Shown here: positions 25,554 to 64,000 of the stretch, one piece after another
Layout: each line of letters opens with the position of its first letter
How positions within the stretch are numbered: position 1 is the stretch's first letter
DNA from: Cymbomonas tetramitiformis
Lineage: Eukaryota; Chlorophyta; Pyramimonadophyceae; Pyramimonadales; Pyramimonadaceae
Reading direction: 5' to 3'
NCBI GenBank assembly: GCA_001247695.2
Contig: LGRX02033435.1
Span: 1 to 64,000, forward strand
Length of the DNA stretch: 64,000 nucleotides
Program-made: the position numbers and the translations under genes
The notes under the pieces: generated by a model
What the model saw: only the letters and a program-made list of their open reading frames with translations
Database searches by the model: none
What the model was told of the DNA's origin: nothing

Positions 25554-26800
25554 GTGGTTATCAACCCCACGGAGGACGTCCGGGACAGCCGCTTCAAGCG
25601 TTCATCCAGGCGCAGGACACCGCGCAACAGAGGCACACCGACGTGCCATCATCAACAGCGTGCTGCCAGCAGTCGGCGAACCAGGATGCGGGCACGCCAG
25701 CGGCGAACCCCACACAGCAAGAAACGTGGCCGTCCACGACACGCTTACAACGCGAGCCAGGGAGGAGCAGCACGATCTTTCACAGCGCAGGCAGGCGACG
25801 TGGACAGCTCCATACCACTGTGCAGAGAGGACGATGTGGAAGCGCTGCACTGCCTGGACGCGGAGCTAAACGTCATTATGGGACCCCAGGCTGGGTTTGA
25901 AGGCGAAGGCGCCTGGTCCGACGAAAAGTGGAACGCCCTACACAGTATGCTCAGGCGAACGAACGGCTTCATGGCAATAACAGCCACCGATTTACCTGGA
26001 TACACCGGGGAGATCGGCAAGTTTGACATCCCCTTCAAGGACGAGAGCACCTCACATCATCACAAGCCGCGCCGCTTATCACCAGTAGAACGTGGTCTGA
26101 TTGGCGATCATTTCAACAAGCTACTGGAAGCTGACATCATCGGCAAAGCCCCTAAGTACTGCGACAACACATGCAACGTGGTGGTCGCTATGAAAAATGC
26201 GCTGGACGGCTCCTGGACTGACACGCGCGTGACACTGGACCTGAGGGGCATCAACGAGCTTTCGCTCAAAGACCGCAAACCGCCAAGATCACCTGAAGAC
26301 CTGTCCCACGACATTGGGAAGGACCAGTACATCACTAAATTGGACCTTCGCAGCGGTCTTCGCCAGATTGTCCTGACGGACGATGCTTCCTTGAAGACTT
26401 GCTTCTGGTGGGCGCGAGAAGGGGCGGCACCTGAGCAATATGTGTACAAGCGTATGCCCTTCGGCAGCACCAACAGCACGCTCGGCCGCGTTCGGCAGGG
26501 CGATCGAGCACGAACTGAGGGGACTCAACTGCGCGAAGGTATACTGTGACGACATCCTGATCACGTCGCCTACAGCTCAGCAGCATATCGCAGACCTGGA
26601 GGCTACCATGGAACGACTGAGCAAGGTGGGCCTGCGCGGCCATCCTGGCAAGTCCGTATTCGCCGCTGGGGGTTGCGAGTTCCTTGGGTTTTGCTGCGTC
26701 GCGGACAACTCTCACCGCACCAAGCTAAAGTTGCCGCCATTCGCGACCTTCCAACGCCTACCGACGTGCGCGGCGTGCGCGCTGTGCTGGGGTTCATGAA
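25554..26800 (+). pseudogene. Gypsy-1 reverse transcriptase, two frameshifts
   Basis: RT landmarks occur in order: the N-terminal region ERGLIGDHFNKLLEADII, then VTLDLRGIN, then ITKLDLRSGLRQI, then YVYKRMPFGSTNS. The frame then switches at about 26,480-26,530 to one reading VYCDDILITS (YCDD active site) and LGFCCV, and near 26,680 switches again into the RNase H frame. Order and motifs are Ty3/gypsy. The two shifts show decay or assembly error. Confidence 0.85.
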
Positions 26801-27929
26801 ATTTTATCGGAACATGGCAGCGCGCATCGGGAAAGAAGACTACTCCACAATGGCCTGGCCGCTGAACTGTCTACTCAGAAAGGGCAACGAGAACATCAAG
26901 GCCGTGTGGGGCAAGGAGCACGACGACGCGCTCGCACAGCTCAAGAAGCGACTCATCGAGCCAGGCATAGTCGTGCATGCCTACGACCCCCAAAAGTCAT
27001 TGTACCTCATGACTGACTGGTCCGGCGTCGGCATATCAGCCATCTTGGGCCAGAAGGACGACGAAGGACAGGGCGTGATCATTGCCGCGACCAGCCGCAC
27101 GTTGTCGCGTTCAGAGGTGCAGTACAGCAGCTTCTACGGGGAAGCCCTGACCGTTGTGTATGGAGTACGGACATTCCGACATTATTTGCACGGCGTCAGA
27201 TTCACTCTCATCACCGACCACAAGCCACTGACCTGGCTGCAGCGATCTCAAACGCTGACAGGTATGCATCTGCGCTGGCAGGTGTCGCTGCAAGAGTTCG
27301 AATACGAATTCGTCATTGTGCACCGTGTCGGGAGCAGCCACACCAACGCCGATGTGCTATCCCGCTATCCGCGAGATTCCTGCCTCGATCCCACCGGGGC
27401 CAGCCTGGACTCCATGGTCAACCAGCGATCGCTGCTTACAGCAAGCACTTTTGCGTGCCTGTGCGCAAGGCATCCACGCGACGCCGCCCACGACACCATG
27501 CCAACCGCAGTCTCCGCCGCATCATGGCAGTATGAGCGTCGTATGGGCAGCCGTGACCGCGACCCATGCACTGGCGAAGATTTGGTCGCCCACCACATGG
27601 GAGACTATTGGGCGTGCCACAGCACCTACGCAGACCTCGATGAGGAACGCGACGATAGCCTGTGGTCCGATGTTTGCGAATGGGTCGCCCAGCACAGTGC
27701 GCGCTACCAGCACGTGACCAACGAGCCCACGCGTGTACTCGACAACAACATGAAGGAGGACAGAGTAATCAGCCTGAACACTCAACCAGTCCCACGCCTC
27801 ACAGTCACCAGCATGCACAAAAGCGGGGCAGTGGTAGTGGAACTGTGCGCGGGCATTGATATGCTCCGGCTTAGAGGCATACCTGGTCACGGGCGGCAAT
27901 GTCAATCGCTACATATACTGCGACAATAA
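26673..27929 (+). pseudogene. Gypsy-1 RT thumb, RNase H and first methyltransferase motif
   Basis: Continues RT (VLGFMKFYRNMAARIG, connection KKRLIEPGIVVHAYDP) into RNase H: LYLMTDWSGVGISAIL, YGEALTVVYGVRTFRHYL, LITDHKPLTWLQ, GSSHTNADVLSRYP. After about 180 low-homology residues comes VVVELCAGID, which matches C5-methyltransferase motif I (the SAM-binding F-x-G-x-x pattern). Just after this motif the homology passes to the +1 frame (27856 onward), so a single-base change splits the methyltransferase. Confidence 0.85.
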
Positions 27930-52342: not shown

Positions 52343-53525
52343 CTAGGAGTCACCCGCACCACTGGGGTGCGGGCGGATCACGTCCATGAAGGACTCGATC
52401 ATGCTGATGATCACCCGCACCTTGTCCTTGAGCCCAGGAAGAGGTTTGGTGAAGATATCAGCCAGGTTGAGTAAAGTGTTGATGTAAACAGGCACTAGGT
52501 ACCCAGCACACACCCACCCCCGAAAGCAGTGAAAACGGATCAACACATGCTTAATCTTGGTGGATAGCATGACATTCCTCAGAATGGAGGAGGCCGCCTG
52601 GTTGTCAATCATGACAGCCACCGGGAGCTCCAGCCTGGGAATGAAGGGTCCAGAGGTACCATACATGCCAGACCGCTGAGAGTGGTACTCCCGCGGACCG
52701 TCCTCGTAGCCCGTGCCATCAAATGGTACTGGCACCGCGTGAGGCAGGGCATACAGGCTGCTGTCAGGAACAGGCTCAGCCTCCCGGTAGTGTAGGGGGG
52801 AGGCGGGGCCCATCTGACCATGACCCATAGCATGATTCTCGAAGAACGTGGCCGCCCTCTGCATCCAAGAAGTGTCAGCTGCAGGGAAGGCCGTAGACAG
52901 AGCCAGAGCAGACACACCCGGCTCCTGCTGCGTGATTCTGATAAATCCGAACATCTCCACAATCATATGGATAGCAGACATGGCCCGCTGCCCAACCACA
53001 GAGGCGGCCACATACTCAGATCCAGTGGAGGACATCTCAGCATCAGTCTGGCGGGCACATACCCAATGAAGCACCATGCCGTTGAGGAATACAATGCCCC
53101 CCGAGTAGGAGAGGCACCCGTTGAGTTTGTCACGAGCATGGTCAGCATCCGAATATACCTGTATTGTGAGCACAGAAAGCGGTGCACTGGGGTAAGCATA
53201 ACGGATACGGTAGTGCCGTGTGAAGTATAGATACTGAGCCACTCTCTGAAGTGCCTCCCAGGCCTGAGCCGAGGGGCATGAGGAGAACTGTGCCAGATAT
53301 ATGACTGAGTAATATACATCTGGCCTGGTGCACCGTGCAATCCACAGCAGGGACCCAAGCAGTGAGAGATACGGGGTGACAAGGGTGAGATCAGGGTGCT
53401 CCGGCTTCTGGATAACGAGGTTCACATCCATCGGATTGTGAAAGGTTTTGGCCGGAAGCTTGAACTTGGACATGAGCTCCTTGATCTGCCTGGTTTGGGA
53501 CAGTGCAATGCCCCACCGATCATAG
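52343..53525 (-). pseudogene. Copia-2 pol fragment (end of RT plus RNase H)
   Basis: The minus frame matches Copia-1 ORF2 from YDRWGIALSQTRQIKEL to the stop GAGDS with few changes. It is cut at 53525 by the Gypsy-2 LTR. The frame opens a little into the LTR (to 53581) but that is not copia sequence. Confidence 0.9.
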
Positions 53526-54218
53526 TGTGCCAGGGGCACGACGACAGATGCTCGGAGATATGTTTTTGATTGAACGTGCAAAGGTACACAATTCGGATTT
53601 TTATAATATACTGGATCAGGGCCAGATTGAGGTACAAACGATAATTCGGTTCCGAGTTCTGAAGGCTAAACACTTCTCAAGTGCTCTACTTATTCACTCG
53701 TCACTCAGGTTGCAGGGTCAACCACTCGAGAGCCGATGTCACACTTCGGCTCAACGTTCAGTTCTCGATCCGATCTCATTTCTAATTCCGATTCGTCATT
53801 CTCGATTCAGATGTTATGCCAACAGACTGACACGATGACTGCCCCACAGTACTGTCATACTACTGTACTGTCATACTGTCATACTGTCATAGCGTCATAC
53901 TGTCATACTGTCATAACCTTAATATCCGATATTCGATTTCATTGTCTTTTCAACCCCGATGCGAATCTGACCATTCTTCGAGGGTCTGACTGAGTTCCAC
54001 GATGACACCCCCCACAGTACTGTCATACTACTATAGTGTCATACTGTCATACTGTCATAGTGTCATAGTGTCATACTGTCATACCCCGGACATCTGGTAT
54101 TCATTCTCATCGTGGTTTCAAGCCCAATCTCACTGTCATCGTGCCAATCCCAGATTACCCCCGATGACACACATACGGACGCATAGACATATCGGCTCAC
54201 GCTGTGCCTCCGGGCACA
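53526..54218 (-). repeat. Gypsy-2 3' LTR (~693 bp)
   Basis: Boundaries are inferred. The left edge is the exact point where Copia-2 homology stops (CATAG|TGTGCC). The right edge is where TGTGCCCGG on the minus strand follows a purine run. The ends form the inverted pair TGTGCC...GGCACA. Inside are arrays of TGTCATAC words (about 53,850-53,925 and 54,020-54,085). The 5' LTR is outside the window. Confidence 0.7.
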
Positions 54219-54234
54219 ACTCTCCCCCCCTTAG
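54219..54234 (-). promoter_or_regulatory. Gypsy-2 polypurine tract
   Basis: On the minus strand CTAAGGGGGGGAGAG precedes the LTR start TGTGCC. It is a conventional polypurine tract, unlike the AGGTRGTG octamer of the copia group. Confidence 0.65.
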
Positions 54235-54406: not shown

Positions 54407-57400
54407 CTAAAGCGGGTCTTCAGTGTCGCGGAGGCGTAAATGTCGGAAAAGTTGTCGTAGCAGGAGTGCTGGTACGGGGTATACACTCGCAGATCGACCT
54501 GCTCCAGTCTGCTGCGGGTGAGGTCCAAGCTGAGCAGTCTCTGGGTGAGCACCGGTTGCCCATCTGCACGCACACGGTGTCGAAGTGGTACAGCGTAGCA
54601 GGGGCGAGGGTGGTGCTGAGTTCGTCCATATGCAGGTGGGTTTCATGTACTGCGTACCATACATGCAGTAGGTACACACCAGCGGTGGGGGAAGCTGGCG
54701 CATCATAGGGCGAAGCCGTAGCGCGTTAGGGAAGCGACCTCTGGGGTTTTCCATGAACCAATGTTTTGGCTCTAGGTAGTCAATGATCTGCAATGCTCGT
54801 CGTACGATTTTGTCAGCCTGGGGAAGGTCAGGGGGTCCACCAGTGGTGCGCGCTTGACTGTACTGCCTGCAGGGGGGACTTGCCCAAATAACATCGAAGA
54901 ATCCAGGCGGGTATTGCTTGTAGTCCCATTGCAGGATGTCACACACATGAGTGGGTTGCCAGATATGCCCGGAGTCGAGGGTCACCACTGAGGCGGAGGG
55001 GAAGCAATTTAGGAATTCTCTCTCTACTGAGCCAGTACCGCTGAAAAGTACGAGAATCCTGGGCGTGCGGGTTGTCTTTGCCTGTATTGCCAGCAGCTCT
55101 GTCACCAGTGCCAACGACCCATCTTCCACGCGCTCCTGGCGTTCCCACGGCAGGGGGATATCATCTTCCATCTGTTCGAGCTGGTCCAGTTCATCGCAGG
55201 GATTGGTGATGAGGTGGGCCAGTGTCATTCCGGCTTGAGCGGAGTGGCGGCCACGCTGCTCGCGTCGCCGAGTGGCTTCGTCGCGGACTTGCGCTTCCAT
55301 GTGCAGTCTCGCTTGCTCGAATTCACGAAGTTGTTGAAGTGGACTTCCGCGTTCAAGTTTGTCACGCGTCCTCCATTGGTCGTGAGCTTTGGAGTAGCCA
55401 GTCCAGCGAACCTTCCACTCTTCCACCTCCTTTCCTCGAACAGACCGCACTCGACGTGCAAGGATACGCTCAACGTGTGCTTCCTTCTGACCGTCTACTA
55501 CCACCTCTTCAGGTACTGCTAGGTGATCGCGTGCGGCAAAAGCATCTTGACCGCTGGTGTACGGTTTGAGGCGATGTTGAGCGAACACGTCGTGAATCCG
55601 CCAGTGAGGAGGGAGGCGTAGGCGGTAGGCTACTGGAGCTCCTCTGTCGGCCTCGGGCATGGTCATCTGTATATCGCTGAAGAAGCGTTCGGTCACAGGA
55701 ACTGGTCCATGCCAGCGCTTGGTCAGTTTCCTACAGATGGAGCGATCCATCACCTTCTCCGTAAGGTGCTTCGCCTCTATCCAGACCAGATCTCCAACAG
55801 CATACTCCCGCTGCCCGTGTCTGCGATCAAACTGTTCGCGCTGTCGCTGTTGAGCCAGCTCCAACCGCTGTCTGGCGTCCCGCAGCTGCGACGAAAATTT
55901 CACAGCCACTTCGTGTGCGGTGCCTACTCCCCCAGTTCGTCGTCCGGCGGTGGACTGCGCGGCCTCCAGGAAAAGATCCAACTGCGACAGCGGCGAGAAC
56001 CCGAACACCAGTTCAAACGGCGTGAAGCCAGTAGATTCACTCCTGGAGTCATTGATCGCGAACTCCACGTTAGTGGTGAACAGATCCCAGTCCTCCACAT
56101 TGGCGTCAACAAAGGACCTGAGCATGTCCTCAATAACTCTGTTGCTGTGTTCTGCCTGGCCGTCAGACCGAGGGTTGTACGGCGTGGTACGAGCCACTTT
56201 TACACCCATCAGTCTCATGAGTTCCTGCCAGAAAGCATCTTGAAACCGCGGGTCACGATCAGAGACAATCTTCATAGGCGCGCCATGTAAGCGCCACACC
56301 GAGTCAAAGTAGATTCTGGCCACCACAGCTGCGGAGCTGTCGCCAAAGTTCATCGGTACAACGTGGACCATCTTCGTCAGCTTGCAGGTGAAGGCCACGA
56401 AAGCATCATTGCCCCTCTCCGATACCGGCAGGCCGGTGACGAAGTCCACCGCGACATCCTGCCATGGCCTGTTCGGGATGCTGTGAGGGTTTAGCAACCC
56501 ATCCGGGTAAGTTCCCCGCGGTCTCACTGATTGGCACACTGCGCAGGATGCAACCCCGGTGCCCACATCTTCCGCGGCACCACGCCAATAGAAGCGTCGC
56601 AGCACCCTCTCCAGAGTCTTGTCCCGCCCAGTATGGCCTGAGGACAATGACTCATGAGCATGGCGAATCACTACTTCCCGAAGTGGAGAGTCCTCCCCCA
56701 GCACCAGCTGATATCTCCCTGCTGCGGTCCTCCAAACCACTTCACCCACCAGCCTGAAGTCCTGTAGGCATTGGTGTGGTGCCGCCTTCACTTTCTCTCG
56801 CAGTGAACGGAGTGTCCCCTCTCGGGTGTACTCCGCTTTCAACGCACGCAGGAACCTTGAGTCTGACTGCTGGGAGGTTGCGTCTCTGAAAGCTGCTGCC
56901 TCACCTGTCCTTATCACAGCGGGGGCCGTTCGCGGGTGCCTCACGCGTGACGGCTGTGGTTTGGCAGAAGGGGCGTGTACTATCAGAACAGGCCAACGAA
57001 GGTCGAAGGCCTTCCCATCTGGGTTCTCGAAGAACTGATTGGGCTCGCCCTTATCATCGTGAGTAGGGATGACCTCCACGATCTGCATATTGGCCTTTCT
57101 GAAAAGTTTGCGCCACGCGGGGAGCTTGGACTGGTGATCTGGTAGGACGAAGACTGCTGAGGTGTTTTCTGGGTCTGCCTTCCATTCTGCGATATACTTG
57201 TTCAAAATCGCCTCCACTGTAATGTGCTTGGAGTTATATGGGGGGTTACACCAAACCCGAAGGCCCCTCCATTTCTCTGAAAGGCAGTCTGTCCAGAACC
57301 TATCCGCCTGTCTGTTGCGGCCACCAAAGTCACAACAGGCGTCCACATCGAAGGGTCCAAACTTCTCGGCGTACTTCGAGGAGTACTCTGCTCGGACACG

Positions 57401-60400
57401 CCAATTCTGTGAGTCTTCGGGGGGAGTCTGCCGTTTCTGCGGGTGAAGGGCCGGGGATGGAGATGACTGCTGGGGCGCCTGCTGCGGGGGTGGTGAACTC
57501 TGCACCTTCTCAGTGGGCGCCTCCGATGCGTCAGCTCGTGATGGCGTTCGCGTCTTCGGTGACGCCAACTGTGGAGGCGCTGGGGTCGTAGAGGCTCTTC
57601 CAGCACGTGACATGCTCCTCGTTATCCTTATCTGGGGTGGAGCTCTGTCAGGGGTTTGGTGTGGAGCTTCTGTCGGCTTCGCGCTATCAGCTTCAGGCCA
57701 GTCAGGCATGTCGAAGTCGAGGTGATCCTCCTTCATTTCCTTATAGAGCTTCGGATTAACGAGAGCGATGGTCTCCCCCATGTCCATGGCCTGTTCCGCC
57801 ACGGAGAGGGTCTCCACTGCTGAGAGCCAACAGTCAACCGTCTGAGCCCAGTGGGGATGAGCTGCGGGTGGTGAGCTGGAGAAGCATTCAGACTCCAGCG
57901 TTGCCAGAGAGTCTTTCGGCAGGTCTGAGGTGGGGTCGATCACTCCTGCCTCCTTCAACCCCTCGCGAACGTCCTTGTCTTTGAAGTCGGGTCTTCTGGA
58001 CAGGGCGTCTGGTACCAGCAGCAGCGCTCCCTTGATGTACTCCATTCTCGGGACTCCCACCTCTACCAGATCCATGTACCAGCGCGCCTGTCTGCGGCTA
58101 AGCTCTCTGCCAGGTTCCATCAGCCATTCAAGGGGGCGGTGATCACCCTGGATGCGGAAGTTGGTAAAGATGAGGTAATGCCGCCAGGTGACGGTGGTAC
58201 AGTGGTGTAGAGCACCTAGCTCACGCTCGCCGGTGTGGTAATTCTGCTCGGCGGCTGAGAACTGGCGGCTCTCGTATGCTATCACGCGCAGCCCAAGACC
58301 ATCTCCATTGTCTTGCATAAGTACTCCCCCAAGAGCGATGCCGCTAGCATCCGTCTGCACCACGAAAGGCGCGGTGCCGTCTGCGGCACCCTTAATGTTG
58401 GGCAAGGCGAGCACTGGCGCTGATGTGAGGGCCTTCTTCAGCTCCTCGAAGGCCCACTGCTGCATAGGACCCCACTCCCAGGGTACGTCCGACTTGGTCA
58501 ACCGGGTGAGGGGCTGAGCGATCTCGGAGAAGCAGTGGATGAACCTGCGGTAATACCCCGCTAGGCCCAAGAACTGCCTGACGTGGGTAACCGTCTCCAG
58601 CTCAGGCCAGTCCCTCACTGCAGCCACCTTGTCGTGTTGGGGTCTGCAGCCATCTGCGGAGATACAGTGGCCAAGGAACCGTAAGGATTTCATCAACAGC
58701 TGGCACTTGGACCTCTTGAGGAAGACGCCCTTCTCCCTGCATGTCAGGAGCAGTTGTTTGACGTGCTCGTAGTGCTCTGCAGCAGTGTTGCTGAAGACGA
58801 CCACATCATCGATGAAGATCCGGACAAATGGGAGATGGCCCAAGGCCCGCTGCATCCGTCGCTGGTACTGAGATGGTGAATTCTGCAGCCCCTGCGGCAT
58901 GACCAACCACTCATATGACCCCATCTGGGTGGTGAAGGCGGTCTTCTCAACATCTCCTGGTGCCATCGGTACTTGCCAGAAGCCATCCACCGCGTCGAAC
59001 GAAGAGAAGAACTTCGCACCCTGCATCTCGTCGAACATCATCTGGATGTCTGGGAGGGGATACTTGTCCTTAACTGTCTGGCGGTTGAGGAGCCGGTAAT
59101 CGATCACCAGTCGCAGCTCCTTGGGGTTCCCCGGTTTGGGGACCATCAGACAGGGAGCTGCATAAGGGCTGGAAGAGGGTCGGATGTAGCCCTTGGACAG
59201 CAGAGTCTCCACGCGTTCTCGAAGTTGGCGGAGTTCCTCTGCGGACTTCTTGTAGATGCGCTGGCAGGGAGGTCCCTTCTTGCTCAGCTCAGGGTCCAGG
59301 TTGATGTTGGCTTCATCTTGGGGGTCATGTCTGAGTCCATCGATGTTCGGTAGAGCAGTCGTCATCTCCTTCTTGTACTCCTCACCCCAGAAGTCCTGAA
59401 ACTTGAGGGTCCACTCAGGGCTCACTTCTGCATCTTCAGTATCCGCAGCGGGTTCGGCGTTCTCAGAGTCGATAGCCGTGGCTGAAAAGGCAGAAGCGGT
59501 ATCGTCGGGGGACTTCTCGGCCACCATGAGCCAGGCGGGCTGTATCTCCGGGTCGTCATTGCCGCGTAGCTTCTGCGTCTCCGCATACACCAGGTACTTC
59601 TTCAGCTGGGCAGGGGTCAGGAACACCTCATCCACCAATCCCGCGCAGGCCGTGCCCTTCGGAGACTTGTCCCCAGATGCTTTCCCAGGAGAACAGCCTG
59701 TGATGGTGACGCGGTCCCCAATCTTGCCACTGCGGGACTTCCTGAGGAAGGAGACGGAGCCATTCCCTTCATAGCCCAGAGTGACAGGAGAGTGACTGCG
59801 CAGCCACCTTCCGCCGAGGATGACATCCACCTGTATGCCCAGTGGCAGGATCCGGAGGGCAAGGGCGTTCTCCGTATAGGTGCCCGTGGTGGTGTGCGTG
59901 TTAAACTTGGCGTACGCGGTGGCGCCGGTGATCTTCACAGATCCATCCGCCAGGGTGACTCGCATCTCGGAACCGGCCCGTGTTGTGAGGCCACATCGCT
60001 TAGCGCTCTGCTCCGAGATGAAGTTGTCAGAGGCCCCCGAGTCAATCAACACCTTGACCGTGTGCCCTCTGAGGGTTGCATAGAATACCAGTAGTAGCGG
60101 TCCTTCTTCGTCATGTGCCGCTGCGAGGGTACCCTCGATGTCGGTCTTCCACTGAACTCCCCCATCTGTGCGTATGCTTTTGCACTTGAGGTTGGGGAGG
60201 AGGTTGTCCGAGGCCTCGCGGCATTCTTCCAGCGTTTGCCTACACGCGGCGTAGAACTCCTCATCCAGCAAATCAGCATCTTCAGGCGGATGACTGACGA
60301 GGTTGTCTGCACTCGCCGTCAGCAGGGTGCCCGCTGAGGTGCATTCGCTCGAGGTGGGGCTGACATGAGTGGTGTCGCTGGTGGTAGGGCTCACATGGGT

Positions 60401-61942
60401 GGTGTCACTGGTAGTAGGGCTCACATGTGTAGTGCCACTGGTGGTAGGGCTAACATGGGTAGTGCCGCTTACTGTGGGGCTCACGTGGGTAGCGACACTA
60501 TCGGTGAGACTGCCATGGGTGAGAGGGTCCTCGTCATGCTGAGGGCTGCCAGCAGGGGAGTTGTGGGCGAGTTGGTGGGAGTTCTGGTGGTCGGTTCTCG
60601 TCTGAGGGGTCCCAGCTGCTGCCATCTGCTGGGTGAAGCAGAGCGAGTTGACCGAGGACTCCTCTTCCATCACCTCAGGGTCTTCAGCGATGGGGTGGCT
60701 GTCGAGGCAGGGTGGCGCTTCATCCGCTTCATGCGTTTTGACGGTGGTCATCTGCTGGGTGAAGCAAAGCGAACTGGGTGCGGAGGTCTCCTCCGCCTCT
60801 GAGCAGTAGGGTGAACCTTCGGGGTTTCCTCCCGGAGTGGCCGGCGCGTTATCATGGTGCGAAGATGTGGTCTCTGCTGTGGGCTCGGCCAGTGAGGATG
60901 ATGGAGGGGATGCTCCCAGGGTGCTGGGACCCAGCTTCCTCATCTTGTACTGGTGTACTGCGTGCAGACTGCACCAGGCACCAGGTAAACCCACATCTCC
61001 CGCTGTCCCAGGTATCGTGCCCTCTTCAGTGTCCAGGGTGCAGAGGGATGTCGAAGACCTCGCTGCTGCTCTTCGTGCGCCCTCCTTTTCCCACAGCCTG
61101 CTACCTGGGGAAGAGTCTGGACTCGAAGTGGCGATTGCCTTTTGCTGCTCGGCAGGCGACAGCTCTCTCCAAGCCACGTAGAGGTCGTGGGAGCTGGTGT
61201 TAGAGGATTCGGGGACTTGCTGGCGACCGTCGTGTGAAAGGAGGTGCCACAATGCTATGCGCTGATGGCCTTCCTTGCGATCTTGAGGTTCGCGGGCAAT
61301 GCGTATCCTCTCTGCCAGCTGGTTGGCGCGGTTCACGCGTTCCTTTGGCGATCGACTCCCAGAGTGTACGCGGCTGCGGACGCGCTCCGACATTTTATCT
61401 ACCAGGTCATTGGCAGCCTCTGGGGACTTGCGCAGAGCTCTGCGGACCTTCTGCATGGCGACTTCGAGGGGGAGGGAGTACAGATCTCTCTTCCAGTGCC
61501 ACGCAGTTAGCCTTTTCCGTGGGTCTGCGAGGTTGGACTGATAGATGGGCAGCGGTAGGACAACACGCGGTCGGGGGCGAAGGTCGCGGGGCTCTCCGCG
61601 GTTGTTGCCCATAATGGGGGGTCTGTGCCGGGGGAGTCGCCGTCCCCTCCGACCCTCGATCCTCGCTTGTGTATAAGCGGGACCGTCATCAAGAGGTAGC
61701 GACGGCTCATCGAAGGGGGTGCTTCCTGCGAGAGGGTGGCTGGACAAGTCATCCCTCGGCGGCGATGGGGCACCAGCTGAGCGGTAGGTGCGTCGCAAGC
61801 GGGTCCCAGAGGTGAAGGCCACACTCTTGGGATGGGGACGTTGGCCCCAAGGGTCTCTGCGTCCTCGGGCGCGACGGGGTTCCACTGGTTCTGACCGCTT
61901 CTCCAGGGCGGAGAGGGTCTGATCATCAGGGCAAGCCCTCAC
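54407..61942 (-). CDS. Gypsy-2 pol: PR-RT-RNaseH-Dam-like MTase-integrase-chromodomain-C5 MTase
   Basis: 2511 codons without interruption. Residues 1-520 are disordered, ending in five TTSDTTHVSP-like repeats. Protease: KVLIDSGASDNF (~633). RT (~900-1100): LRLVIDYRLLNRQ, FFSSFDAVDGFWQV, RIFIDDVVVFS (FIDD). RNase H (~1190-1330): VVQTDASGIALGG, LLVPDALSRRPDF. Dam-like adenine methyltransferase (~1511-1655): FGPFDVDACCD, FWTDCLSEKWRGLRVWCNPPY (NPPY motif IV), SAVFVLPDHQSKLPAWRKLF. Integrase (~1750-1997): HAHESLSSGHTG, CAVCQ, VDFVTGLP, VSDRDPRF, RSDGQAEHSNR (D, D, E). Chromodomain (~2137-2212): AHVERILARR, EWKVRWTGYSKAHDQWR. C5 methyltransferase (~2293-2500): ILVLFSGTGS (motif I), DVIWASPPCRQYSQART (motif IV, nucleophile Cys ~2353), HWFMENPRGRF (motif VI), YCMYGTQYMKPTCIWTN, YPVPALLLRQLF. 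All catalytic residues named are present. The upstream frame is open back to the gag stop at 61982. Confidence 0.93.
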   Translation of the reverse strand: MRACPDDQTLSALEKRSEPVEPRRARGRRDPWGQRPHPKSVAFTSGTRLRRTYRSAGAPSPPRDDLSSHPLAGSTPFDEPSLPLDDGPAYTQARIEGRRGRRLPRHRPPIMGNNRGEPRDLRPRPRVVLPLPIYQSNLADPRKRLTAWHWKRDLYSLPLEVAMQKVRRALRKSPEAANDLVDKMSERVRSRVHSGSRSPKERVNRANQLAERIRIAREPQDRKEGHQRIALWHLLSHDGRQQVPESSNTSSHDLYVAWRELSPAEQQKAIATSSPDSSPGSRLWEKEGARRAAARSSTSLCTLDTEEGTIPGTAGDVGLPGAWCSLHAVHQYKMRKLGPSTLGASPPSSSLAEPTAETTSSHHDNAPATPGGNPEGSPYCSEAEETSAPSSLCFTQQMTTVKTHEADEAPPCLDSHPIAEDPEVMEEESSVNSLCFTQQMAAAGTPQTRTDHQNSHQLAHNSPAGSPQHDEDPLTHGSLTDSVATHVSPTVSGTTHVSPTTSGTTHVSPTTSDTTHVSPTTSDTTHVSPTSSECTSAGTLLTASADNLVSHPPEDADLLDEEFYAACRQTLEECREASDNLLPNLKCKSIRTDGGVQWKTDIEGTLAAAHDEEGPLLLVFYATLRGHTVKVLIDSGASDNFISEQSAKRCGLTTRAGSEMRVTLADGSVKITGATAYAKFNTHTTTGTYTENALALRILPLGIQVDVILGGRWLRSHSPVTLGYEGNGSVSFLRKSRSGKIGDRVTITGCSPGKASGDKSPKGTACAGLVDEVFLTPAQLKKYLVYAETQKLRGNDDPEIQPAWLMVAEKSPDDTASAFSATAIDSENAEPAADTEDAEVSPEWTLKFQDFWGEEYKKEMTTALPNIDGLRHDPQDEANINLDPELSKKGPPCQRIYKKSAEELRQLRERVETLLSKGYIRPSSSPYAAPCLMVPKPGNPKELRLVIDYRLLNRQTVKDKYPLPDIQMMFDEMQGAKFFSSFDAVDGFWQVPMAPGDVEKTAFTTQMGSYEWLVMPQGLQNSPSQYQRRMQRALGHLPFVRIFIDDVVVFSNTAAEHYEHVKQLLLTCREKGVFLKRSKCQLLMKSLRFLGHCISADGCRPQHDKVAAVRDWPELETVTHVRQFLGLAGYYRRFIHCFSEIAQPLTRLTKSDVPWEWGPMQQWAFEELKKALTSAPVLALPNIKGAADGTAPFVVQTDASGIALGGVLMQDNGDGLGLRVIAYESRQFSAAEQNYHTGERELGALHHCTTVTWRHYLIFTNFRIQGDHRPLEWLMEPGRELSRRQARWYMDLVEVGVPRMEYIKGALLLVPDALSRRPDFKDKDVREGLKEAGVIDPTSDLPKDSLATLESECFSSSPPAAHPHWAQTVDCWLSAVETLSVAEQAMDMGETIALVNPKLYKEMKEDHLDFDMPDWPEADSAKPTEAPHQTPDRAPPQIRITRSMSRAGRASTTPAPPQLASPKTRTPSRADASEAPTEKVQSSPPPQQAPQQSSPSPALHPQKRQTPPEDSQNWRVRAEYSSKYAEKFGPFDVDACCDFGGRNRQADRFWTDCLSEKWRGLRVWCNPPYNSKHITVEAILNKYIAEWKADPENTSAVFVLPDHQSKLPAWRKLFRKANMQIVEVIPTHDDKGEPNQFFENPDGKAFDLRWPVLIVHAPSAKPQPSRVRHPRTAPAVIRTGEAAAFRDATSQQSDSRFLRALKAEYTREGTLRSLREKVKAAPHQCLQDFRLVGEVVWRTAAGRYQLVLGEDSPLREVVIRHAHESLSSGHTGRDKTLERVLRRFYWRGAAEDVGTGVASCAVCQSVRPRGTYPDGLLNPHSIPNRPWQDVAVDFVTGLPVSERGNDAFVAFTCKLTKMVHVVPMNFGDSSAAVVARIYFDSVWRLHGAPMKIVSDRDPRFQDAFWQELMRLMGVKVARTTPYNPRSDGQAEHSNRVIEDMLRSFVDANVEDWDLFTTNVEFAINDSRSESTGFTPFELVFGFSPLSQLDLFLEAAQSTAGRRTGGVGTAHEVAVKFSSQLRDARQRLELAQQRQREQFDRRHGQREYAVGDLVWIEAKHLTEKVMDRSICRKLTKRWHGPVPVTERFFSDIQMTMPEADRGAPVAYRLRLPPHWRIHDVFAQHRLKPYTSGQDAFAARDHLAVPEEVVVDGQKEAHVERILARRVRSVRGKEVEEWKVRWTGYSKAHDQWRTRDKLERGSPLQQLREFEQARLHMEAQVRDEATRRREQRGRHSAQAGMTLAHLITNPCDELDQLEQMEDDIPLPWERQERVEDGSLALVTELLAIQAKTTRTPRILVLFSGTGSVEREFLNCFPSASVVTLDSGHIWQPTHVCDILQWDYKQYPPGFFDVIWASPPCRQYSQARTTGGPPDLPQADKIVRRALQIIDYLEPKHWFMENPRGRFPNALRLRPMMRQLPPPLVCTYCMYGTQYMKPTCIWTNSAPPSPLLRCTTSTPCACRWATGAHPETAQLGPHPQQTGAGRSASVYPVPALLLRQLFRHLRLRDTEDPL
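54560..55075 (-). other. C5-cytosine methyltransferase domain of Gypsy-2
   Basis: This is the C-terminal domain of the pol polyprotein. It has SAM motif F-S-G-T-G-S, catalytic S-P-P-C, M-E-N-P in place of E-N-V, and the Y-C-x-Y-G-x-x-Y-x-K-x-T-x-I-W-T-N signature of short Dcm-type enzymes from phages and large viruses. It is clearly a different lineage from the DNMT3-like domain in Gypsy-1. It would methylate cytosine in DNA, perhaps element cDNA or the integration site. Confidence 0.85.
56960..57411 (-). other. Dam-like N6-adenine methyltransferase domain of Gypsy-2
   Basis: It lies between RNase H and integrase. The layout FGPFDVDACCD ... FWTDCLSEKW ... VWCNPPY (N-P-P-Y at nt ~57236-57250) followed by VFVLPDHQSKLPAW matches the phage Dam family (DNA_N-6-adenine-Mtase), in which D/N-P-P-Y/F is the catalytic motif. 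Related Dam-like domains are known in DIRS elements. Activity is inferred from the intact NPPY only. Confidence 0.75.
60358..60507 (-). repeat. 30-bp in-frame repeat (five units) in Gypsy-2 pol
   Basis: Units of 30 bp encode TTSDTTHVSP-like decapeptides upstream of the protease. The period is a multiple of three, so length changes keep the frame. A Ser/Thr-rich linker. Confidence 0.85.
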
Positions 61943-61965
61943 TTCCCCGAAGGGCAGGGTCTGGG

Positions 61966-61984
61966 GCTGGCCGCCGGCCAGTCA
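61966..61984 (-). promoter_or_regulatory. Gag-pol UGA stop with adjacent stem-loop
   Basis: On the minus strand gag ends GAT-GAA-TGA and the same frame continues into pol. The stop is followed without a gap by CTGGCC-GGC-GGCCAG, a perfect 6-bp stem with a 3-base loop. UGA followed by CU and a downstream structure is the arrangement of known readthrough signals. Confidence 0.55.
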
Positions 61985-63313
61985 TTCATCGCTCTCCACC
62001 GGGGGAAGGCCGGCGTCACCCTCCACAAGCTCGATGCCCGCAAGGGCCGCCAGGGTCTGGTAGCTCTGCTCGTCCTCACAGGTAGCAAGAGCCAAGACCT
62101 CCTCGGAGAACTCCTCTGGGCCGCCATCCACCGAGGAGATGTCCTCCTGCTGCTCGATGGCCCAAACGACGGCGGCTACGTACCCAGGGGAGTTCGCCAG
62201 TCGAGCGGGTGCATTGGCCCTCCACTCCTTGAGCTTAGCCTCGTCCGTACAGTTACGGACGATGTGCTCCGCAGAGCCACAGGCGAAGCACCGGCGGACT
62301 TTCGGAGCATCAGGGCGGGAGAGGCCAGGTGGTGGTGGCAAAGGAGTCACTGCCGCGGCGACGGTGGTGGCAGGCCCGTTCTCCAGCATGGCAAGAGCTG
62401 GGCGGTTCGAAGAGGGGGTACGCCTGTAGAAGGGGGTGCGAGGTGGTGGGTTAGCGAAGGAAACGGCACGGGGAGGACGGTCTTGGGAGCGTCTCTGAGC
62501 CGCCTCCGTGTCAATGTCGCTCTCCACCTCCTCAGCAACTTCCCGAATCTTCAACAAGGCGTTGTGGGTGCCGGGGATGTCGTCAGCGACGGCCTTCCTC
62601 TCCCACTCTTCTGGTTTGGAGACATCCAAGTGGATGGCTCTCAGGCGCCGCATCACCTTGGGTGCATATTTCAGCCCCCGGCGGTACGTGGAGAGCATCG
62701 ACAGGTTGGTCATCTCCACGCAATTTGGGACTCTGCCAGCCAAGAAGTTGACGGAGGCCATGCGGGTCTCCAGTCGCGAGAAATACTCCGCCGCGGTCTC
62801 GCTCACCGCCTGCTTCAGGGCAATGGCCTCGCCGTGTGCGTTCTCCAGGTAGGCCTGCGTCAGAGAGCACACCGCCAGATCGCTGAAGAACACATCCAGG
62901 TCCCCGTAGCGTTGGTGCCAAGCTTGCTCGGACCCAAAGGTCCCCGCCGCGCGCTCCAAGAACTTCCTCTGCTGGTCTTGAAGAGTGTACTCCTTGAAGC
63001 TCCACAGAAGACTTGACACACTCGCCTGGTACTCTGATACTGATGGCGTACAACTGGGAGTGGTCAGTGCTTCGATCACGATGGCCTCCTGGAATACCTT
63101 CCGCACCATGTGGGAGTAGTGCTCCAGCTGCGTCAGGAGGCCCTCCTTGTCGGCCGATTTTGTGTCGGACGCGGAGCGGGGGAACCTGGTGACGCTCTTG
63201 ACCAACTTTAGCACCATCTCTTTGGTCTTGTGGCCACTTGTGCTCCAGGCGGACCTCGTCTGGAGATGCTCGCAGGTTAGTGCCCTGCGGCAGACGGACG
63301 ATGCCTGGAACAA
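61982..63313 (-). CDS. Gypsy-2 gag, C-terminal part with zinc knuckle
   Basis: The 443-codon frame encodes capsid-like helices (EYQASVSSLLWSFKEYTLQ; AAEYFSRLETRMASVNFLAG; STYRRGLKYAPKVMRRLRAI) and a canonical CCHC knuckle CFACGSAEHIVRNC (C-x2-C-x4-H-x4-C). The first ~30 residues, before GHKTKEM, do not look coding; real gag probably enters this frame at about 63,190-63,240 from the frame upstream. It ends at TGA 61984-61982, in frame with pol. Confidence 0.8.
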   Translation of the reverse strand: MFQASSVCRRALTCEHLQTRSAWSTSGHKTKEMVLKLVKSVTRFPRSASDTKSADKEGLLTQLEHYSHMVRKVFQEAIVIEALTTPSCTPSVSEYQASVSSLLWSFKEYTLQDQQRKFLERAAGTFGSEQAWHQRYGDLDVFFSDLAVCSLTQAYLENAHGEAIALKQAVSETAAEYFSRLETRMASVNFLAGRVPNCVEMTNLSMLSTYRRGLKYAPKVMRRLRAIHLDVSKPEEWERKAVADDIPGTHNALLKIREVAEEVESDIDTEAAQRRSQDRPPRAVSFANPPPRTPFYRRTPSSNRPALAMLENGPATTVAAAVTPLPPPPGLSRPDAPKVRRCFACGSAEHIVRNCTDEAKLKEWRANAPARLANSPGYVAAVVWAIEQQEDISSVDGGPEEFSEEVLALATCEDEQSYQTLAALAGIELVEGDAGLPPVESDE

Positions 63314-63992
63314 AGGGGGTGGCGCTGGGAGAGAGCACGGGGTTTGCAGCGGCGGCAGAGTGAACGGGGTTCACGGCAGCGGCAGGGTGGACGGAGTTTG
63401 CGGCGGCGGAATGGGGAAAACGGGCAGGGGGTGGCGGTCCCGGGGCATGCGCGGGCGGAGGCGCAGGCGCGGGATTTGTGGGGACTGCGGTCGGAGTGGG
63501 CGGTAATGCAGGGGCTGACGGTGGTGCGGGGAGTGGAAGAGGTGTATGGAAGGGCAGGGGTGTGGATGGTTGTGCGGCCACCACGCTCATGCTCCGGTAC
63601 CAATCGGAGTTGCTGACCTCCGACCACGCGGCGAGCCCGTCCTGATCGAAGTTCTGCATCTCCGACTCCCGCGCAGTAGCAGGGATCCACTCCCATACTG
63701 GCTGCCCCATGCTGGTAGACCGCACATTGGCCGCGGCTGGGTCCCCCATTGCCATATCCATGACCTCGCGGTCGACCATAAGGACCCAGGTCTCCACACG
63801 AGGGGTGGTAAGGGGTAGGGGTGCATGGTGTAGCCGGCCCCCCATGCGCGCATATGCAGTCAGCGGCGCTCCCAGCAGGTGCATGATCCTGAACAAGATG
63901 GCGTCGCCCTGCACCCCAGCCCGGCGGCGTTCGTCCCATGGTGGGGAGACGGTTGCCGCGCCTCGCACCCCAGCTGACTGATGCACCCACAA
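63200..63992 (-). CDS. Gypsy-2 gag, N-terminal part (different frame)
   Basis: From the right edge a frame encodes DAILFRIMHLLGAPLTAYAR, then QPVWEWIPATARESEMQNFD, a proline/alanine-rich linker and PGIVRLPQGTNLRASPDEVR. It must pass to the +1 frame (KTKEMVLKLVKS) near 63,200. One inserted base would explain this; a programmed shift inside gag would be unusual. The 5' end lies at or beyond the window edge. Confidence 0.6.
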
Positions 63993-64000
63993 TGACCCAC

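Follow-up and report, generated by a model that had tools for sequence, protein, structure and literature searches.

Introduction

In the literature that we found, descriptions of retrotransposon methyltransferases each concern a single chemistry. C5-cytosine methyltransferase (C5) domains are known in gypsy, DIRS, and LINE elements, and Dam-type N6-adenine methyltransferase (Dam) domains are known in DIRS elements (available parts of PMC5890265 and PMC6338049). Here we describe an element in a 64,000-nucleotide stretch of contig LGRX02033435.1 (positions 1 to 64,000, hereafter the window), in which a prediction made from the letters alone (the original prediction) had placed both chemistries in one Ty3/gypsy polyprotein. 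The host is the prasinophyte Cymbomonas tetramitiformis (Pyramimonadales), and the open reading frame (ORF) in question is the pol of a Ty3/gypsy chromodomain long terminal repeat (LTR) retrotransposon.

Among the closest described systems is KnitGypsy-Dnmt3 of Klebsormidium nitens (de Mendoza et al. 2018, PMC5890265), which is likewise a green-lineage algal Ty3/gypsy pol with a C5 domain under purifying selection. It differs in that its C5 is of the Dnmt3 type and that an adenine methyltransferase is unmentioned in the available part of PMC5890265, whereas the window element combines a phrog_757-type C5 with Dam. According to the same portion of that source, SymbioDIRS-Dnmt3 and SymbioLINE-Dnmt also carry a C5 domain in a retroelement (within Pol for the DIRS element), but they belong to other retroelement classes and other C5 groups, and Dam goes unmentioned there. 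DIRS elements with Dam resemble the window element in holding a Dam-type domain within a retrotransposon polyprotein (PMC5890265 and PMC6338049, in part); they use a tyrosine recombinase in place of the DDE integrase found here, and the window element further has a protease and LTRs. With chromoviruses it shares the domain order and a chromodomain at the integrase end. Chlamyvir-related chromodomain pol genes are mentioned in C. tetramitiformis in the available text of its genome paper (PMC10675990), where the word "methyltransferase" has 0 occurrences in the main text. The original prediction held that each chemistry was known singly in retroelements and knew of no description of the two together in a Ty3/gypsy polyprotein. 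The systems above agree with the former, and among the papers listed by our searches of the open-access PMC literature (at most 20 per search), with preprints outside their scope, none was found to describe both chemistries in one polyprotein.

One pol reading frame contains Dam-type and C5-type domains

The domains of the pol frame are given below. Matches come from a Pfam profile search, and residue numbers are positions in the listed ORF (54407-61942, minus strand).

54407..61981, minus strand: pol frame, running 2,524 codons from directly behind the gag UGA through its own stop
59798..60079, minus strand: aspartic protease, residues 622-715 (PF13650/PF13975)
58667..59143, minus strand: reverse transcriptase, residues 934-1092 (PF00078, RVT_1, E 2.9e-31)
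58064..58474, minus strand: RNase H, residues 1157-1293, two models combined (PF17917/PF17919)
56963..57412, minus strand: Dam-type N6-adenine methyltransferase domain, residues 1511-1660, limits hand-drawn from the alignment; catalytic motif CNPPY
56516..56689, minus strand: integrase H2C2 zinc domain, residues 1752-1809 (PF17921)
56171..56470, minus strand: integrase core, residues 1825-1924 (PF00665, rve), DDE type by eye
55316..55477, minus strand: chromodomain, residues 2156-2209 (PF00385, 29.0 bits, cut-off 25.1)
54428..55063, minus strand: compact C5-type methyltransferase domain, residues 2294-2505, limits hand-drawn

The listed ORF is free of stops over 2,511 codons counted from a GTG. 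Its openness, as originally predicted, holds, while the GTG start does not: the frame opens at 61981, and the GTG is an artefact of the listing, since gag closes with a UGA and pol continues in the same frame. The predicted order of protease, reverse transcriptase (RT), RNase H, Dam, integrase, chromodomain, and C5 was recovered by Pfam, and the VWCNPPY, ASPPC, MENP, and D-D-E motifs are all present. This is the order of Ty3/gypsy chromodomain elements (protease, RT, RNase H, integrase, with the chromodomain at the integrase end). The phage-integrase (tyrosine recombinase) profile found no match in the pol ORF, which matches the H2C2 and rve integrase profiles instead. The rve match scores 23.4 bits, below its cut-off of 32.6, with the D, D, and E motifs legible by eye and the catalytic E possibly just downstream of the match. 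Between integrase core and chromodomain, Pfam places a Tf2-1-type SH3 match (residues 2102-2128).

The Dam-type domain matches PF05869 above the curated cut-off (residues 1505-1578, E 2.2e-7, 31.2 bits against 28.1), in a match confined to the profile's first half (positions 3-78 of 169). All ten members of the Dam alignment match this profile (E up to 0.1); NPP is invariant in the ten rows and the following Y nearly so. The original call of a Dam-like domain is upheld by this match and the NPPY motif. The closest phage family is phrog_111. Against the phage N-6-adenine-methyltransferase model TIGR01712 the domain scored 25.1 bits (E 1e-5), short of the cut-off of 97.05, and among solved structures it gave four weak matches (E 0.13 or worse), none of them a methyltransferase. 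A search of viral contigs with the Dam alignment kept 80 of 145 loci, and the 24 that were translated are free-standing Dam-like ORFs.

The C5 domain belongs to a compact phage/virus-type family

The C5 domain matches DNA_methylase (PF00145) at residues 2329-2401 (E 1.4e-4), with 21.8 bits on the whole ORF and 26.3 bits when excised, against a cut-off of 22.0; the match is confined to profile positions 43-112 of 324. All six C5 alignment members match PF00145 (E up to 0.1). Together with motifs I, IV (PPC), and VI (EN), these matches confirm the predicted C5-cytosine methyltransferase domain. Its description as Dcm-like did not survive: the dcm model TIGR00675 gives 14.8 bits against a cut-off of 100.65, which leaves capture of a Dcm enzyme unsupported, and the nearest relatives are of a compact phage/virus type.

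In the window, the domain reads FSGTGSVE, SPPC, ENP, YG..YxKPTxIWTN, C..PC..H, and Y.vP..LL..LF. Common to the six alignment rows are F.GTGSVE, ASPPC, ENP, YG..YxKPTxxWT, two Cys and a His, and a C-terminal Y..P..LL..LF. The wider compact family has 1,859 database matches, 120 of which were listed, and from these 120 and the window we hand-picked 44 rows. Every one of these 44 rows has SPPC and ENP unchanged, and likewise the glycine of the S-adenosylmethionine (SAM) motif, with nearly invariant neighbours. Neither a target-recognition domain nor a canonical motif VIII (QxRxR) was found in the domain; K-P-T..WTN occupies what we take, by our numbering of the C5 motifs, to be the place of motif VIII. 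As a separate observation, C142, C167, and H182 (numbered in window:54410-55090) are invariant across the 44 rows and C173 nearly so, a Cys/Cys/Cys/His set that could form a zinc site replacing the target-recognition domain.

Profile comparison places the domain in the compact (about 200 amino acids) phage/virus-type family phrog_757, with a match of E 4.7e-17 running along the domain (residues 3-195 of 215 on profile positions 14-205 of 247). The small phage methyltransferases of this family share its motifs and length. They are free-standing genes, whereas the window C5 is fused to integrase and chromodomain. Eight solved chains matched the domain at E up to 1, with DNMT2 the best (E 0.0026); Dnmt3 is absent among them, in a comparison made without a direct Dnmt3 sequence.

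In a tree of 130 C5 rows (87 without a long N-terminal extension, 24 with an extension of at least 34 residues, 8 from pol, and 11 viral), the pol rows and most extended forms group inside the free-standing family. This group has an SH-aLRT support of 86, under the 95 mark, and holds 46 rows: 8 from pol, 21 extended, and 17 classed as alone, some of which may be fragments. Three extended rows fall outside it, and the next larger set, of 54 rows, reaches 95. Given this nesting, the phage/virus gene pool, and not a host Dnmt, is the most likely source of the domain, with direction and donor inferred. An alignment of the retroelement C5 domains found zero loci in the viral contigs, and the free-standing family found 79. 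One of these contigs (L082:569-6660) has a compact C5 gene near ORFs that by eye resemble an ATPase, a capsid protein, and an N6/N4-type methyltransferase. Pfam found no match for its packaging ATPase-like and capsid-like ORFs. L082 is possibly a Polinton-like virus and of the donor type for C5.

The element is a young, high-copy family, and the combination is shared by distant relatives

We searched the Cymbomonas genome (851.7 Mb, 25,745 contigs, the window being contig C23350) for further copies. The window Dam has at least 150 genomic places at 98-100% identity, all without an internal stop, from 7,713 first-look candidates. Forty-six of the 150 scored places, the window included, lie within open frames of 2,511 to 2,537 codons. 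With the Dam domain from protein P0014 as the query, a second lineage likewise gave at least 150 places, 148 of the 150 scored being stop-free. These at least 300 places over two lineages were scored for Dam only, and alleles on separate contigs may be counted twice. Our data indicate that the element is a young, high-copy family, the copies being recent because their LTR pairs differ by only 1 to 8 mismatches (seven copies). A unique chimera is ruled out by the places in each of the two lineages and by the distant relative L160. Both domains match methyltransferase profiles and other copies carry them, and on both counts the original prediction stands.

Eighteen Dam-bearing proteins were compared. 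The C5 domain is complete in seven (P0001, P0006-P0008, P0010, P0013, and P0014), partial in five (P0002-P0005 and P0009), and not reached in five that stop before it (P0011, P0012, and P0015-P0017); the eighteenth, P0018, is taken up below. Two of these relatives, P0002 and P0014, are annotated as C. tetramitiformis. The gene models P0002, P0003, and P0005 diverge in the C5 tail (the last ~60 residues), which raised the suspicion of a frameshift there. It is ruled out, as P0006, P0007/P0008, P0010, P0013, and P0014 stay in the same frame to the end. Those three gene models probably skip the tail through predicted introns.

Between the window and the Cymbomonas-type proteins P0006-P0014, identity is 50-61% in Dam, 50-70% in C5 where complete, and 62-83% in RT, and the linkers are at 24-32% (RNase H to Dam), 29-48% (Dam to integrase), and 21-42% (chromodomain to C5). 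More distant is L160 (NHEN01000032.1), a marine metagenome contig filed as a Verrucomicrobiaceae bin whose DNA is evidently eukaryotic. It encodes RNase H, Dam, integrase, SH3, chromodomain, and C5 in the order of the window, with motifs intact, at 35% identity to the window pol (482 of 1,395 aligned positions). Its Dam scores 27.4 bits, under the PF05869 cut-off of 28.1, and Pfam gives no match to its C5 at E 0.01; both domains are clear in direct alignment. Since L160 carries both domains in the same order at this distance, the combination is old and not a recent accident; overall, the fusion spans lineages just 35-65% identical. L160 also contains a long gag-like frame (L160:4391-10378, 1,995 codons) with a zinc knuckle, for which Pfam gives zf-CCHC only; its middle resembles an OTU-type protease by eye, without a Pfam match.

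Segregating changes suggest purifying selection on both domains

We counted synonymous and nonsynonymous segregating changes among 15 copies of the window family, 12 of which reach C5 while L176-L178 reach Dam only. Left out of this set were L172 and L175 (other strand) and C3501 (same flank as the window copy). The C5 domain shows 19 synonymous and 5 nonsynonymous changes (ratio of nonsynonymous to synonymous diversity, piN/piS, 0.10; 12 copies). The corresponding counts are 20 and 3 for RT, 30 and 11 for integrase, and 20 and 24 for the linker between RNase H and Dam (0.39). Dam shows 19 and 0, a count that is biased because the copies were found by Dam similarity.

In the second lineage (30 loci), Dam shows 24 synonymous and 5 nonsynonymous changes within 29 loci, and the linker before it 63 and 162 (0.96). 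Between the remaining locus, L208, and the other 29, the pN/pS ratio of nonsynonymous to synonymous differences is 0.07 for Dam (means of 20 nonsynonymous and 80 synonymous differences), 0.45 for the linker before it, and 0.09 for integrase. Within three lineage-2 copies, C5 stands at 0.13-0.24. Dam differs from its linker in lineage 2 (Fisher p 1.6e-8) and C5 from the RNase H-Dam linker (p 0.010). Against an assumed nonsynonymous share of 0.75, binomial tests give p 4e-8 for C5 (5 of 24) and p 1e-10 for lineage-2 Dam (5 of 29). P0001 differs from the window at 36 residues (none in Dam, one in C5, and 31 outside the eight domains), a comparison that is by itself insignificant for Dam or C5 (p 0.07 each). 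These data suggest that both domains are under purifying selection, and the original claim of intact motifs under current selection is supported by the counts among genomic copies.

Synonymous diversity among copies (piS) is 0.05-0.06 in Dam and the linker that follows it (56690-57412) and 0.02-0.04 elsewhere in pol. P0002 is also more diverged in this region; recombination between subfamilies is perhaps the reason.

LTRs, gag, and the gag-pol junction

The remaining parts of the element in the window are as follows.

53526..54218, minus strand: 3' LTR, 693 bp, TGTGCCCGG...GGCACA
54220..54233, minus strand: polypurine tract AAGGGGGGGAGAG, preceding the 3' LTR
61982..61984, minus strand: UGA stop separating gag and pol in the same frame, with a perfect 6-bp hairpin directly after it (61967-61981)
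61982..64000, minus strand: gag, partial in the window and frame-shifted in this copy

The 5' LTR is absent from the window copy because the contig ends at 64912. Across seven copies examined, the LTR pairs align over 693-695 bp in six and 496 bp in the seventh, AAGGGGGGGAGAG precedes the 3' LTR in all seven, and TTTGGTATCAGCG, which we take to be the primer binding site matching initiator-Met tRNA, lies behind the LTR in six. A target-site duplication of 4-5 bp was read by eye from the flanks of five of the seven; C18221 has none and C19214 was unreadable. TG..CA ends, short target-site duplications, a primer binding site, and a polypurine tract are therefore found across copies, as in other LTR elements.

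The frame that ends at the gag stop has 1,158 codons in four of eight other copies and 1,169 in a fifth; the remaining three, which have upstream frame breaks, give 956, 917, and 673. UGA closes the gag frame in all eight, with pol in the same frame and open to the end of the stretch. The hairpin UGA-CUGGCC-GGC-GGCCAG (6 bp, perfect, GC) is identical in the window and in seven of the eight; the exact pattern was unmatched in the eighth. This arrangement suggests that Pol is made by stop-codon readthrough at the gag UGA, with the hairpin as a candidate readthrough signal. Over 91 bases round the junction, the predicted RNA fold is no more stable than shuffles (z -0.84). The window copy itself is probably not autonomous and may depend on other copies, since its gag is frame-shifted at a site where all eight others share one length; its pol is open.

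A copia-type pol fragment (52343-53581, by eye) abuts the end of the 3' LTR, so the element seems to be inserted in an older retroelement. Copy C3501 has the same copia-fragment flank and may be the other allele. Elsewhere in the window, a second RT region (26208-27371, plus strand) has 27% identity to the pol over 403 aligned positions.

Proposed role of the two domains and evidence against it

We propose that this Ty3/gypsy pol uses two virus/phage-type methyltransferases as integral domains that mark the element's own cDNA, a reading to which we give an even chance. Pol would arise by readthrough at the gag UGA, be taken into the particle, and undergo cleavage by the protease. Dam would go with RT/RNase H or integrase, and C5 would remain on the integrase tail. 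Both domains would use SAM to mark new double-stranded cDNA, either ahead of integration or in its course, and the copy would thus reach chromatin with adenines and cytosines already methylated. Most probably, the element would benefit because its cDNA passes as self, safe from nucleases that cut unmodified DNA and from foreign-DNA recognition, and the element itself might set the early expression state of the new copy. A place inside Pol should give access to the cDNA. De Mendoza et al. made the same argument for DIRS elements with a DNMT, and in their test these methylated CG de novo (PMC5890265, available part). The position in Pol, the kept catalytic residues, and the signs of selection together point to enzymes used in the replication cycle, with cDNA marking as the simplest reading. 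The original prediction would have the marks placed on the cDNA or at the insertion site, perhaps under guidance of the chromodomain.

Several observations weigh against this proposal. A LINE-type DNMT tested in yeast left DNA unmethylated (PMC5890265, available part). Lacking the target-recognition domain and the canonical motif VIII arginines, the compact C5 family may differ in specificity, act on RNA, or have no substrate at all. P0018 keeps its Dam, but SPPC and ENP are missing from its C5-like tail (a weak match, the tail alone giving 9.9 bits); this region (residues ~1690-1970) is possibly a natural C5 pseudoenzyme. The CpG shortage in pol is mild (observed-to-expected ratio 0.75, against 0.78-0.98 in other window parts), and transitions at CpG positions (53 of 980) exceed those at other C or G positions (104 of 3,430) only ~1.8-fold; this weak mutation signature proves no methylation, and such tests say little. 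On the side of selection, the bias noted for the window-family Dam extends to the lineage-2 copies, which were likewise found by Dam similarity. Constraint as strong as that on C5 is seen in the window-family linkers after Dam (19 synonymous to 4 nonsynonymous) and before C5 (6 to 0), which means that some linkers are not free. Lineage-2 integrase looks relaxed within the lineage (0.46, decayed copies included), and between the same lineage-2 groups (one against three copies) C5 has pN 0.20 and a saturated pS of 0.74, giving a ratio of 0.27, just below the 0.34-0.36 of the short upstream linker. P0002 differs from the window at seven Dam residues but two RT residues. Finally, the marking could equally be self-limiting.

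It is somewhat unlikely, in our assessment, that the C5-type domain is no longer, or never was, a DNA cytosine methyltransferase and instead binds nucleic acid or marks RNA, leaving Dam alone to mark DNA. Besides the missing recognition elements and the short PF00145 match, the potential zinc site, the degenerate tail of P0018, and the RNA methyltransferase DNMT2 as best solved relative (though only at E 0.0026) are in its favour; yet invariant SPPC and ENP motifs, present also in L160, and an invariant SAM glycine fit catalysis and not mere binding. We regard as unlikely a role in self-limitation or chromatin placement, in which methylation by an integrase-chromodomain-C5 protein would silence new insertions and let the host tolerate a high copy number. 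5-Methylcytosine (5mC) commonly silences transposons, the C5 domain lies behind the chromodomain, and copy number is indeed high in both lineages. However, self-silencing would be hard for selection on single elements to maintain unless the element profits, and the dated copies are young and many frames are open, so the family does not look held down.

An antiviral function is doubtful to a similar degree. Here the domains would defend the host cell, and with it the element, against large DNA viruses, or would have been captured from viruses and shield cDNA from viral restriction nucleases. C5 relatives do occur in phages and viral contigs, C. tetramitiformis has a giant virus integrated in its genome along with numerous Polinton-like viruses (PMC10675990, available part), and it has been suggested that transposon methylases act against viruses (PMC6338049, available part); still, a direct sequence link is absent, and the idea is compatible with cDNA marking and inseparable from it here. 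That the domains are passive passengers, functionless captured genes retained merely since the elements are young, seems highly improbable. The recent LTR pairs and the constrained window-family linkers would fit such a view, but the fusion spans diverged lineages, and nonsynonymous changes in C5 and in lineage-2 Dam fall far under the ~3:1 neutral expectation, by contrast with the linkers between RNase H and Dam. The selection tests contradict passengers, unless they are artefacts of how the copies were found.

Significance for the element family and its host

Beyond the retrotransposon methyltransferases already described, the locus has both chemistries in one polyprotein, with purifying selection that can be measured, a distant relative in which both are intact (L160), and a natural variant that is possibly degenerate (P0018). 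It also points to the entry into retroelements of C5 enzymes of the compact virus type, a source other than host Dnmt3. Native nanopore reads of the host exist (17.4 Gb from nine flow cells, raw data under BioProject PRJNA286761; PMC10675990, available part). Provided that the signal files still exist, they could show whether young copies carry N6-methyladenine (6mA) and 5mC. We hold only tentatively, and lean against, the fuller claim of an ancient class of marine algal retrotransposons that put both 6mA and 5mC on their own cDNA by means of enzymes from the virus pool. If true, this would be the first mobile element known to label its copies in a private two-letter epigenetic code, and the two marks may serve for surviving the nucleases of giant viruses that infect the host.

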